Below are positions 47,993 through 53,976 of a stretch of 64,000 bases of DNA, in pieces (position 1 is the stretch's first letter; each line of letters starts with the position of its first letter). The stretch is from Blochmannia endosymbiont of Camponotus (Colobopsis) obliquus (lineage in GTDB: Bacteria; Pseudomonadota; Gammaproteobacteria; Enterobacterales; Enterobacteriaceae), in NCBI RefSeq assembly GCF_000973545.1, contig NZ_CP010049.1:124001-188000 (forward strand). Direction: 5' to 3'. Under the pieces are notes generated by a model that worked only from the letters and a program-made list of their open reading frames with translations, was not told the origin of the DNA and made no database searches. A program made the translations under genes and the position numbers.

Positions 47993-49306
47993 ATGAATTA
48001 TCAAGATAAAGAAATCGTTGTAATTGGGTTAGGAATTACTGGATTATCCTGTGTGATGTTTTTTCTTAGACAAGGTGTTATTCCTCGTGTCATGGATACC
48101 AGAAAAAATCCACCAACTTTAGCTAAGTTACCAAGTCACATAAAGTATTGTTTAGAAGAATTAAATGAAAAATGGGTGCTAGCTGCTACTTTAATTGTAG
48201 TAAGCCCGGGTGTTTCATTATATCATCCTGTATTGGTTACAGCAGCACATTTAGGAATAGAAATTATTGGAGATATTGAACTATTTGTACGTGAAGTCAC
48301 TAAACCAATAGTTGCGATTACTGGTACTAACGGTAAAAGTACTGTTACTAGATTAGTAGGTGAAATGGCTTTTGCTGCTGGTTTACGGGTGGGTATTGGT
48401 GGTAATATTGGAAGGCCAGCGCTTACATTATTAAATGATGATTATCAATTGTATATATTAGAGTTATCAAGTTTTCAATTAGAGACTACTTTTAGTTTAA
48501 AGGCTGCTGTAGCAATAATTTTAAATATTAGTAATGAACATGTCAATCGTTATCCTTTTGGGTTACAGCAATATCGTGATGTTAAATTAAAAATTTATGA
48601 ACAAGCATCATCATGTGTTGTTAATGCTTTGGATGTATTGACTTTTCCTAGAAATGATTGTGAAGAGCGTTGTATTTATTTTGGTAATGAGCCAAGTGGA
48701 CATTATATAAAATTTTGGAAGGGACAAGCTTTTTTGATGTTACATAACGAGATATTATTTAATTGTAAAGATCTTAGGATTATTGGTTATCATAATTATA
48801 CTAATGTATTAGCAGCATTAGTATTAGCAGATGTTTTATCTATATCACGCACAGTGTGTTTATCTGTATTACAAGGATTTATTGGTTTAGCTCATCGTTT
48901 TGAATTAATACATAATAAAAATGGGGTACAATGGATAAATGATTCAAAATCTACAAATATAGCTAGCACTCAGGTTGCCCTTAGGAGTTTAGTATTAGAT
49001 GGTATAATACATTTGTTATTAGGTGGTGATGCTAAATCAGCAGATTTCAGTTCCTTGAAGTCCTGGGTTCAAAGAGATAATATTAGTTTATATTGTTTTG
49101 GTAAAGATGGTAAATATTTATCTATGTTACGTTCAAATAATGTCATCCTCACTGATACTATGGAACAAGCAGTAAGAATAGTTGGTAGTAACGTGCGGAC
49201 AGGAGATGTGGTGTTGCTGTCTCCTGCCTGTTCTAGTTTAGACCAATTTAAAAATTTTGAATTGCGCGGTAAAATATTTACAAATTTGGCAAAGGAGGTT
49301 GGTTGA
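47993..49306 (+). CDS. murD: UDP-MurNAc-L-alanine:D-glutamate ligase
   Basis: MurD adds D-glutamate to UDP-MurNAc-L-Ala. The protein has 437 residues (E. coli 438). VVIGLGITGLSCVMFF is the N-terminal nucleotide fold; AITGTNGKSTVTRLVGEMA the ATP loop; LELSSFQLETT, NDSKSTNIASTQVAL, HLLLGGDAKSADF and LLSPACSSLDQFKNFELRG follow. Its stop overlaps an ATG (TGATG, 49304-49308) with a perfect AAGGAGG ahead, which I interpret as the true ftsW start signal. Confidence 0.97.
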   Translation: MNYQDKEIVVIGLGITGLSCVMFFLRQGVIPRVMDTRKNPPTLAKLPSHIKYCLEELNEKWVLAATLIVVSPGVSLYHPVLVTAAHLGIEIIGDIELFVREVTKPIVAITGTNGKSTVTRLVGEMAFAAGLRVGIGGNIGRPALTLLNDDYQLYILELSSFQLETTFSLKAAVAIILNISNEHVNRYPFGLQQYRDVKLKIYEQASSCVVNALDVLTFPRNDCEERCIYFGNEPSGHYIKFWKGQAFLMLHNEILFNCKDLRIIGYHNYTNVLAALVLADVLSISRTVCLSVLQGFIGLAHRFELIHNKNGVQWINDSKSTNIASTQVALRSLVLDGIIHLLLGGDAKSADFSSLKSWVQRDNISLYCFGKDGKYLSMLRSNNVILTDTMEQAVRIVGSNVRTGDVVLLSPACSSLDQFKNFELRGKIFTNLAKEVG

Positions 49307-49349
49307 TGTATTTTTTAAAAAAAAAATCAAAATTATTAAAGATTGGGTG

Positions 49350-50468
49350 ATGTTACAACAGCCAACTATCATATTATACGATCGTGTTATTTTATGGTTA
49401 ACTATAGGACTAATTTCTATAGGTTTAGTTATGGTTGCATCTACTTCAATGTTAATTGGATCAAGATTATTTGGTGATTCTTTTTATTTTGTTAAACGTA
49501 ATATATTGTATATCGGGTTTTCGTTTGTAATATCTTTATTTATATTAAAAATTCCTATATCAGTTTGGTATCGTTATAATTTTATTTTATTAATTGTTTC
49601 TTTCTTTATGTTGTTGTTGGTATTGTTAGTAGGACATTCAGTGAATGGTTCGTTAAGATGGTTATCTTTCGGATCATTATGTATTCAACCAGCTGAATTG
49701 GCTAAGTTGTCATTATTTTGTTATTTATCTAGTTATTTAGCACGTAAAATTGATGGCAATTTTTATCAATCTTGGATTTTTTACAAGCCGATAGTTATCA
49801 TGTTAATAATGTTTTTTTTAGTATTGTTGCAACCTGATCTCGGTACTGCAACTATTATGTTTGTTACGACTTTGTCTGTTTTGTTTATTGCTGGTATTGC
49901 ATTGAAGTATTTTTTTTTATTTTTTTTTATAACTATATTAATAATAATTAGTTTAATTATTATTGAACCTTATCGTATACAACGTATACTTGCCTTTTGG
50001 AATCCATGGAGTGATCCATTTGGGAGTGGTTATCAGCTAACTCAATCATTAATAGCTTTTGGAAGAGGTGAATTATGGGGTCAAGGGTTAGGTAATTCGA
50101 TACAAAAAATGGAGTATCTTCCAGAAGTTCATACTGATTTTATATTTGCAATTCTTGGAGAAGAGTTAGGATATTGTGGTGTATTTTTAATTTTATTAAT
50201 GATATTTGCAATTATTTTTCGAGCTTTATCTATTTCTAATCAGGCATTCAGAATAGGTCGGTATTTTTCTGGATTTTTGTCTTGTTCTATTGGAGTTTGG
50301 TTAAATATTCAAACGGTGATAAATATAGGAGTTACAATTGGTATATTACCTACTAAGGGATTGACATTACCATTTATCAGTTATGGTGGTTCTAGTTTTA
50401 TAGTTATGTTTATTGTTATTATGTTGTTATTGAGAATAGATTTTGAATTGCGTATATCTAGGATATAG
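49350..50468 (+). CDS. ftsW: Septal peptidoglycan polymerase FtsW (start region frameshifted at A10)
   Basis: FtsW is the SEDS-family glycosyltransferase that polymerises septal glycan with FtsI. From ATG 49350 it has 372 residues (E. coli 414) with ten membrane segments. IQPAELAKLSLFCYLSSY, FWNPWSDPFGSGYQLTQS, GELWGQGLGNSIQKMEYLPE and GLTLPFISYGGSS are the family signature. The E. coli-like N-terminal IKDWVM lies upstream in the same frame. The best start signal, ATG 49306 with AAGGAGG seven bases ahead, is one frame off, separated by A10 (49317-49326). One extra A in the mRNA would join them. Without slippage, translation would begin weakly at GTG 49347 or ATG 49350. Confidence 0.95.
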   Translation: MLQQPTIILYDRVILWLTIGLISIGLVMVASTSMLIGSRLFGDSFYFVKRNILYIGFSFVISLFILKIPISVWYRYNFILLIVSFFMLLLVLLVGHSVNGSLRWLSFGSLCIQPAELAKLSLFCYLSSYLARKIDGNFYQSWIFYKPIVIMLIMFFLVLLQPDLGTATIMFVTTLSVLFIAGIALKYFFLFFFITILIIISLIIIEPYRIQRILAFWNPWSDPFGSGYQLTQSLIAFGRGELWGQGLGNSIQKMEYLPEVHTDFIFAILGEELGYCGVFLILLMIFAIIFRALSISNQAFRIGRYFSGFLSCSIGVWLNIQTVINIGVTIGILPTKGLTLPFISYGGSSFIVMFIVIMLLLRIDFELRISRI

Positions 50469-51629: not shown

Positions 51630-53075
51630 GTGAACATACATCAATTATCAAAATCACGTATTTTTTCAGGTATGCATCTAGTGAAAAAGATACATTTTGT
51701 TGGTATTGGTGGTATCAGTATGGGAGGTATCGCAGAAGTATTAGTTGATGAAGGATATCAAATTAGTGGTTCTGATTTAGTATCTAATGCAATGACTCAA
51801 CGATTAATTACTTTGGGGGTACAAATTTTTTCTAATCATCATTCTGATAATATACAGAAGGTCAATTTAGTTGTCATATCTAGTGCCATTTCGCAAGACA
51901 ATCCAGAGGTAATTGCTGCTAAAAAGTCTTGCATTCCTGTTATACAACGTGCAGTAATGTTGGCTGAAATAATGCGATGTCGTTATGGTATTGCCGTCGC
52001 TGGTACTCATGGTAAAACGACTACTACGGCAATGCTTATTAGTATTTATATTGCAGCTGGTTTAGATCCTACTTTTATTAATGGTGGTGTAATTAAGTCA
52101 ATTGGTGTAAGTGCTCGATTGGGATATAGTCGTTATTTAATAGTAGAAGCAGACGAGAGTGATGCTTCTTTTTTACATTTACAACCTATGATAGATATTG
52201 TTACTAATATTGAAGCTGATCATATGGATACTTATCAAGGTAATTTCGAAAGTTTAAAACAAGCATTTATTAATTTTCTGAATAATTTACCACTGTTTGG
52301 TTGCGCTGTAATGTGTATTGATGATCCTGTTATAAAAGGATTAATACCTACAATAAATTGTCAAATTATTACATATGGATTTGATCCTGCGTCAGATTTG
52401 TGTATTTCTGATTACAAACAACAAGAAGGAGTGGGAAGTTTTTTATTAAAAAAACAAAATGGATCGTCATTAAGAGTAGTTTTAAATGTTCCTGGACGTC
52501 ATAATGCATTAAATGCTACAGCCGCAATTGCGGTTGCTGTTAAAGCAGGTATAAGTGATCAAGTTATTTTAAAAGCTATGTTTAAGTATGAAGGTACATG
52601 TCGTCGTTTTGAATATTTAGGTGATTATGATTTAAAAAGTATTAATGGAAAGGAAGGTATAGTAACATTATTAGATGATTATGGGCATCATCCAACTGAA
52701 TTAGATGTTACTATTAAAGCTGTACGTGATGGATGGTTGAATAGACGTTTAATAATGGTGTTTGAACCGCATCGTTTTACCAGAATAAAGTATTTATATG
52801 ATGATTTTGTTAAAGTATTATCCAATGTGGATTTTTTATTAATTTTAAACATATATTCCGCCGGTGAACAACCAATATCAGGTATTGATAGTGTTTCTTT
52901 ATGTTGTAGTATCCGTCGATATGGTAAAATAAATCCCATTGTGGTTTTAGATGTTGAAGAATTACCATTTATTTTATCTGTTATTTTGCGGGATAATGAT
53001 TTGATTTTAATGCAGGGTGCTGGCACTGTAGGTGAGATTGCAAATAAATTAGCTTATAGTAAACTACAATTTTAG
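51630..53075 (+). CDS. murC: UDP-N-acetylmuramate:L-alanine ligase
   Basis: MurC begins pentapeptide assembly by adding L-alanine. The protein has 481 residues (E. coli 491). GTG 51630 gives [12 protein letters not shown], matching E. coli MNTQQLAKLRSI, with AGGA (51621-51624) ahead; the frame is open ten codons further but not homologous. [56 protein letters not shown] as [10 protein letters not shown] and [16 protein letters not shown] are family blocks. ddlB, which follows in E. coli, is missing: only 82 bases separate it from ftsQ. Confidence 0.97.
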
Positions 53076-53157
53076 TAATATCATTAGTTATTTTTATTAT
53101 TATAAAAATTAAAATTATAATAAATAAAGGCTCTTTTTTATCATAACAGAGATAAAA

Positions 53158-53976
53158 GTGTTCAAGCTATTTATAGATTTTTGGAATTGTAAATTAAACA
53201 AAGTTTGCGTGCGATGTTTTATAAAAAATAAAACATATTTTTTTGGTTTATTTTTTTTTATAGTTGTATTGGTTATTATTATTTATAGTATATTTAAAAC
53301 AGTTGTATGGATGCAACATACTCATTATTTAAAGTTATCTAAATTGTTAATTACCGGAAAATTATGTTATACGACTAATGATGATATTTATCATGCTATG
53401 TGTAATGTTCATTTAAATAAAAGTTTGATGGAACAAGATATACGTGTTATTTGTCAACAAATTAGTCAATTATCCTGGATAAAGGGAATTAGTGTGCGTA
53501 AACAATGGCCTAATGTATTAAAGATTTATATTATAGAATATGAACCGATATGTTATTGGAACGATGTTCAAATGCTTGATAAAGATGGTGTGATTTTTCA
53601 GGTTCCAATTGATCGGATTAATGATAAATATTGTTTGCCCATATTATATGGACCTGAGGGCAGCGCCTTAGATGTACTAACTGGTTATCGTGTGCTTTAT
53701 GATGTAATAAAATCTACTGGTTTTACATTGCGATCTGTAAAGATGAATCATCGTTATTCATGGCAAATAATATTAAAAGAAAATATTAAATTAGAATTAG
53801 GTAGAAAAAATAAAGTGGAAAGATTACAACGATTTATTAAAGCGTATCCCTTTTTTATTAAAAACATTCAAAATGATGGTAGATGCATCAATTATATAGA
53901 TTTACGGTATGATTATGGTTTTGCCGTAAGTTGGATGACGTGTAGTAATTATTCTGATTGTGAGAATATTGAATAA
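53158..53976 (+). CDS. ftsQ: Cell division protein FtsQ
   Basis: FtsQ is a bitopic divisome protein that recruits FtsL/FtsB. The protein has 272 residues (E. coli 276). A membrane segment at about 30-50 precedes the POTRA domain (LLITGKLCYTTNDDIYHAM) and the beta domain (LSWIKGISVRKQWPNVLKIYIIEYEPICYWND; INYIDLRYDYGFAVSW). The start is GTG 53158; AGAG lies nearby. The sequence is diverged but blocks and position before ftsA leave little doubt. Confidence 0.94.
   Translation: MFKLFIDFWNCKLNKVCVRCFIKNKTYFFGLFFFIVVLVIIIYSIFKTVVWMQHTHYLKLSKLLITGKLCYTTNDDIYHAMCNVHLNKSLMEQDIRVICQQISQLSWIKGISVRKQWPNVLKIYIIEYEPICYWNDVQMLDKDGVIFQVPIDRINDKYCLPILYGPEGSALDVLTGYRVLYDVIKSTGFTLRSVKMNHRYSWQIILKENIKLELGRKNKVERLQRFIKAYPFFIKNIQNDGRCINYIDLRYDYGFAVSWMTCSNYSDCENIE

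Follow-up and report, generated by a model that had tools for sequence, protein, structure and literature searches.

The murD-ftsW junction of the Blochmannia endosymbiont of the ant Colobopsis obliquus (hereafter B. obliquus) raises the question of how FtsW is made when the best start signal in front of its gene opens into the wrong frame. We analyzed this junction within a window of 64,000 nt, bases 124,001-188,000 of the single-contig, 773,940-bp genome (CP010049). According to the available part of the genome report, this symbiont diverges earliest among six Blochmannia and its genome has a GC content of 27.4% (PMC4389277). Scans for tRNA genes and for Rfam matches at gathering score returned none across the 64-kb window.

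An out-of-frame start at the murD-ftsW junction

On the forward strand, the murD ORF (47993-49306), named from its position and from matching murD ends in relatives, terminates at TGA 49304-49306, which overlaps ATG 49306-49308 as TGATG. An AAGGAGG Shine-Dalgarno sequence (49292-49298) serves this ATG at a spacing of 7 nt. The frame that it opens differs from that of ftsW and gives a leader ORF of 14 codons (MYFLKKKSKLLKIG*, 49306-49350), which ends at TGA 49348-49350. The frame break lies at an A10 tract (49317-49326), exactly ten bases long with T on both sides. The first-pass annotation had described this break, and re-reading the sequence returned its positions for the Shine-Dalgarno, ATG, tract and stop to the base. 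It was equally right that one added A joins the start to ftsW, giving MYFLKKKIKIIKDWVMLQQP... / MYFLKKKIKIIKDWVMLQQPTIILYDR with no stop. It did not report a second TGATG at 49348-49352, where the leader stop lies over the ftsW ATG 49350-49352 with GTG 49347 immediately upstream, nor an in-frame TTG (49299-49301) directly against the Shine-Dalgarno.

The ftsW frame remains open upstream of ATG 49350, its first in-frame ATG, from which a short form of 372 aa (49350-50468) is encoded. This protein belongs to the FtsW family of SEDS glycosyltransferases, with a PF01098 score of 369 bits against a cut-off of 26.4 (4.9e-111) and murD adjoining, and the body of the gene has no internal stop, the gene being otherwise intact. 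The stop is TAG 50466-50468, and the match to the FtsW of the C. nipponica symbiont continues past it to about 50483, which makes the C-terminus slightly shortened. Within the body, a T9-A-T9 stretch (49910-49928) is in frame. Further downstream, a gap of only 82 bases (53075-53158) separates what we presume from gene order to be murC and ftsQ; ddlB was not seen in this gap, and in E. coli it sits between these two genes.

In the other Blochmannia, the ATG overlapping the murD stop is in frame with ftsW in 10 of 13 genomes (14 genomes of the genus were read, B. obliquus included), as it is at all 13 enteric loci (L004-L015, L018); among the more distant loci, L032 is without an overlapping ATG at the murD stop. 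Because of this conservation in 10 Blochmannia and 13/13 enteric loci, ATG 49306 is best read as the ancestral ftsW start, whose frame was lost in B. obliquus. Two other species, B. floridanus (705,557 bp) and B. vafer (722,585 bp), share with B. obliquus an in-frame ATG that lies solely further downstream. Their murD-overlapping ATG is out of frame too, and their sole in-frame ATG, giving MLYDR and MILLYDR, is closer to TM1 than ATG 49350. B. turneri (749,321 bp) has a TTG as its only in-frame start. Seven of the ten Blochmannia with an in-frame ATG at the murD stop have a tail containing an A9 tract, and all seven are in frame (7/7), so that a long A tract alone does not imply a break. Exact A10 runs are common in the 773,940-base B. 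obliquus genome, with 43 on the two strands (24 + 19). Judged from the comparison of starts, it is the position of the break that goes beyond chance, since the broken ATG is a position-conserved start.

A probable second start beneath the wrong-frame stop

Trp-Val-Met lies ahead of TM1 at 27 of the 37 enterobacterial loci counted here (L004-L015, L018, L117-L138, L142 and L144) and is coded by GTGATG at 21 of them, and it occurs in none of the other 13 Blochmannia. B. obliquus carries it in the 15-mer AAAGATTGGGTGATG (49338-49352; Lys-Asp-Trp-Val-Met), which also holds the second TGATG and a weak Shine-Dalgarno-like AAAG. The same 15-mer is identical in Pantoea (L133) and has been retained in B. 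obliquus although the genome is only 27.4% GC. In the alignment, ATG 49350 falls on the Met of the enterobacterial "GWVM". This is residue 31 in an odd 495-aa FtsW record (P0043) whose N-terminus resembles that of E. coli. In the closest relative found, the C. nipponica symbiont (66% identity), the FtsW record begins at the Met aligned to ATG 49350, with the N-termini reading MLNKSVNVLYDR in that symbiont and MLQQPTIILYDR in B. obliquus from 49350. That start is a PGAP call, as far as the available part of its source indicates (PMC8086219), and is known from the protein record alone, the upstream frame lying outside it. Among 38 relatives searched with the C. nipponica protein at E <= 1e-150, only G000 matched.

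The Pfam match begins 13 codons past ATG 49350, at 49389, and lies entirely within the short form, and the alignment to the two solved FtsW sequences starts at query residue 17. On these alignments, a protein begun at ATG 49350 is predicted to keep the whole SEDS domain. We consider it probable, at roughly 60%, that the gene yields mainly a 372-aa FtsW arising by stop-start re-initiation, with a longer form contributed by slippage or -1 frameshifting. The wrong frame in which ATG 49306 is now observed would go back to a change of a single base in the A tract. Ribosomes starting at ATG 49306 would read 14 codons, terminate at TGA 49348-49350 and restart at the overlapping ATG 49350, and the short FtsW would lose only the poorly conserved N-terminal tail. 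The longer form, MYFLKKKIKIIKDWVM..., may come as a bonus from the fraction of mRNA with an extra A or from ribosomes slipping by -1, and FtsW would be produced with or without slippage.

Stop-start overlaps of the TGATG type give translational coupling, and it is from the overlap at 49348-49352 that we infer coupling at ATG 49350. Against a restart, the Shine-Dalgarno-like support at this ATG is weak (AAAG, spacing 8). In the predicted RNA fold, the stretch 49295-49310, which covers ATG 49306 and some of the Shine-Dalgarno, is paired to bases just downstream. This fold is no stronger than those of shuffled sequences (z -0.76, 49/200 as good) and, if real, would weaken both routes. The Lys-Asp-Trp-Val retained in the ftsW frame upstream of ATG 49350 could be a sign of continuing long-form synthesis, or simply of a recent break.

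Recurrent frame breaks in Buchnera and other symbionts

We read the murD-ftsW junctions in symbiont genomes of the family. One genus (g98) is Buchnera, as a plasmid stretch of G424 matches 36 records, all from Buchnera, and protein names concur. From 36 Buchnera genomes, one gave no match (G110) and one was set aside for a broken ftsW (G435), so that 34 were counted. Fourteen of these have no in-frame ATG, GTG or TTG before TM1. One extra A joins the murD-overlapping ATG to ftsW in 11 of the 14; the remaining three (G457, G454 and G443) are in the other phase and are not restored. G434, which has an in-frame GTG and TTG, is not among the 14. In a second genus (g69), two of 11 genomes (G425 and G214) are without an in-frame start and both are restored by one A, as is symbiont G020 (599,419 bp), where an A12 tract accompanies the lack of an in-frame start. 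In total, 17 symbiont genomes have no in-frame ATG, GTG or TTG for ftsW, and a single extra A restores 14 of them. The murD stop was not found at two of the other 35 loci classified (G186 and G120). G424 is the Aphis helianthi symbiont (plasmid 100%), and the putative hosts of others are A. craccivora (G459), A. aurantii (G448), A. glycines (G454) and Hyadaphis tataricae (G369). The murD ends of two Buchnera (G434 and G456; L109 and L110) look shifted relative to other species, and three ftsW matches contain internal stops: 13 in L082 (G090), one in L053 (G153) and two in L199 (G435).

In a rapid phylogeny of FtsW bodies (SH-aLRT only), 14 Buchnera species form one clade with a support of 99. 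Only G450 among them is in frame; of the 13 out-of-frame members, ten have the +1 phase and three the other phase. The Shine-Dalgarno and TAATG are kept in 13 of the 14 species, with A tracts of 8 to 11 leading into the wrong frame; these 13 lack an in-frame ATG, GTG or TTG, and in six of them a stop follows straight after the tract (MFLKKK*). Over both genera, in/out changes number at least six if G434 counts as out of frame, which is doubtful. Each lineage appears to have broken first in the +1 phase. G426, which has an in-frame ATG, is an exception in the other phase, as are B. floridanus and B. vafer, where the sequence is eroded and has no tract. The +1 phase is no proof of selection for slippage, because the contraction of in-frame tracts yields the +1 phase too.

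Runs of 10 or more A occur in 21 of the 34 Buchnera leaders, which together span about 2,056 nt, and the control bodies hold 3 such runs in 34 ftsW, 11 in 34 murD and 10 in 34 murG, counts that are non-independent through shared descent. An ORF-length test, the only one applied, flagged no short ORF among the 102 Buchnera ftsW, murD and murG bodies. In g69, it flagged four of 11 loci, with murG ORFs of 290-294 codons (G360, G214, G294 and G426) and a murD ORF of 217 codons (G294), and the contrast between leader and body is therefore limited to Buchnera. These short g69 ORFs (L055, L057, L059 and L088; murD in L059) may be further breaks or artefacts of the length test. A free lysine-rich tail explains the A tracts, not how translation begins.

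The Buchnera with no in-frame start must rely on either poly(A) rescue or non-AUG initiation. Some of their FtsW database entries start at ATA or ATT (L044, L104 and L089), and others begin at a Met inside the protein and omit TM1. An ATT start was considered as a general answer for Buchnera and rejected, as ATT is found in some species only and others have ATA or begin elsewhere. On the sequence comparison, we favour the murD-overlapping ATG, with slippage or frameshifting, over non-AUG initiation in Buchnera, because the ATA and ATT positions vary between species while the Shine-Dalgarno, ATG and tract are constant. The slippage idea thus gains more weight for Buchnera than for B. obliquus, because 14/34 are without an in-frame ATG, GTG or TTG. 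We can only tentatively propose, and with somewhat less than even odds, that poly(A) frameshifts have arisen repeatedly at the ftsW start in insect symbionts. The septal peptidoglycan polymerase of the Buchnera clade would have depended on slippage or -1 frameshifting since the clade ancestor, perhaps selected as a throttle, and the B. obliquus break would be independent and equipped with a back-up restart. No report of an ftsW frameshift in Buchnera was found in the literature searched, and a study of 14 Buchnera genomes from Aphis mentions neither ftsW nor a frameshift (PMC11813355).

Alternative routes to FtsW in B. obliquus

It is possible, if rather unlikely, that the main source of functional FtsW is RNA polymerase slippage, with one A added on A10 in transcripts read from ATG 49306. 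This ATG is the best start signal, the added A opens the ftsW frame, and rescue may work at this same site in the Buchnera, g69 and G020 genomes without any in-frame start. That poly(A) slippage is already published for Buchnera and Blochmannia, as the first-pass annotation had stated, is borne out by the available parts of two studies (PMC5009743, PMC3017870). In one, corrected transcripts make up 12-50% for cell-wall genes of Buchnera and for a histidine gene from an ant symbiont (PMC5009743); in the other, full-length transcripts through slippage amount to about 30% (PMC3017870). In the accessible part of a further study, 151 of 157 Buchnera transcription insertions fall in homopolymers, A/T runs dominate, the insertions are mostly of a single base, and single-base insertions grow exponentially with run length (PMC5574713). 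Because of these corrected transcripts and homopolymer insertions, slippage in endosymbiont poly(A) tracts is credible. However, the same part of that study reports that no frame-restoring transcription error was detected (PMC5574713).

The B. obliquus gene has a break at a homopolymer of about nine or more bases (A10) and is otherwise intact, as in slippage-rescued genes, but it also has normal starts in frame (ATG 49350, GTG 49347 and TTG 49299). Unlike the Buchnera, g69 and G020 genomes above, it possesses a conserved in-frame ATG, and the N-terminal tail that slippage would restore is missing from two other Blochmannia. The broken start itself is thus confirmed, and its interpretation by slippage is partly supported: the break, its site and the +1 phase hold, whereas the need for slippage is not supported, as ATG 49350 lies in a stop-start overlap, gives a full Pfam match and aligns with the first Met of the C. 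nipponica record. For B. obliquus, we judge slippage less likely than a restart at 49350.

It is improbable that ATG 49306 is linked to ftsW through a -1 ribosomal shift at the A tract. The heptamers T TTA AAA (49314-49320) and A AAA AAA (49317-49323) belong to a type that slips, both stand in the zero frame within 49314-49323, and the shift needed is -1. In dnaX, the stimulatory Shine-Dalgarno lies about 10 nt from the heptamer. Here it lies 15-18 nt away, a distance too great for stimulation of the dnaX kind, and the predicted RNA structure is ordinary (z -0.76).

We give slightly less credence still to translation from the in-frame TTG 49299, where the protein database entry for this contig begins (389 aa, MVDVFFKKK...). 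A TTG is the sole in-frame start in 8 of the 34 Buchnera, in one of which it overlaps the murD stop. However, TTG 49299 has a spacing of 0 from AAGGAGG, which makes it an unlikely start, whereas the same Shine-Dalgarno serves the ATG at a spacing of 7, and none of the other 13 Blochmannia has a conserved start at this position. Because the 389-aa entry starts at this TTG, it hides the frame break.

Finally, although homopolymers are generally prone to error, an assembly error with a true tract of A11, which the first-pass annotation had named as one case that would overturn its reading, is very unlikely, given the 558x Illumina coverage, a VarScan check following indel realignment in which no position differs from the read majority (PMC4389277), and the 17 other symbiont genomes with out-of-frame starts at the same place. 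The genome report counts four frameshifted genes in B. obliquus, and 'ftsW' is absent from its main text (PMC4389277).

Discussion

From an evolutionary perspective, a gene may outlive the loss of its start frame when a second start underlies the wrong-frame stop, and such an arrangement offers a simple way for frameshifts close to the start to be tolerated. According to the available part of one source, Buchnera is without RodA (PMC5814848); if so, FtsW would be its only SEDS protein. The homologous starts form a natural set (in frame, off by one, off by two, TTG, and non-AUG as annotated), which allows a direct test of a protein's dependence on polymerase slippage. Database entries mask such breaks through TTG, ATA or ATT starts.

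Several known systems resemble the B. obliquus junction in part. E. coli reportedly makes two forms of FtsW, one of them shorter, and ATG 49350 corresponds to Met31 of the E. coli-like N-terminus; however, the E. coli starts share one frame, whereas the long form of B. obliquus requires a frame correction. A shorter in-frame ftsW product is also found in Caulobacter, described in the accessible part of its report as a 35-amino-acid isoform from an internal transcript (PMC4117421), whereas the B. obliquus form would drop only the N-terminal tail. With respect to TGATG coupling, B. obliquus has two such stop-start overlaps in a span of 50 bases and, in contrast to the usual case, its middle ORF is a 14-codon relic and no gene. 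A further parallel is offered by the frameshifted genes of Blochmannia and Buchnera that are reportedly rescued by polymerase slippage at poly(A) tracts (Tamas 2008, Wernegreen 2010), which likewise combine an AT-rich endosymbiont, a single indel in an A tract and an otherwise intact gene. The B. obliquus ftsW differs from them in that its break falls within the first codons, a second start overlaps the wrong-frame stop, and a TTG start in the database entry conceals the break.
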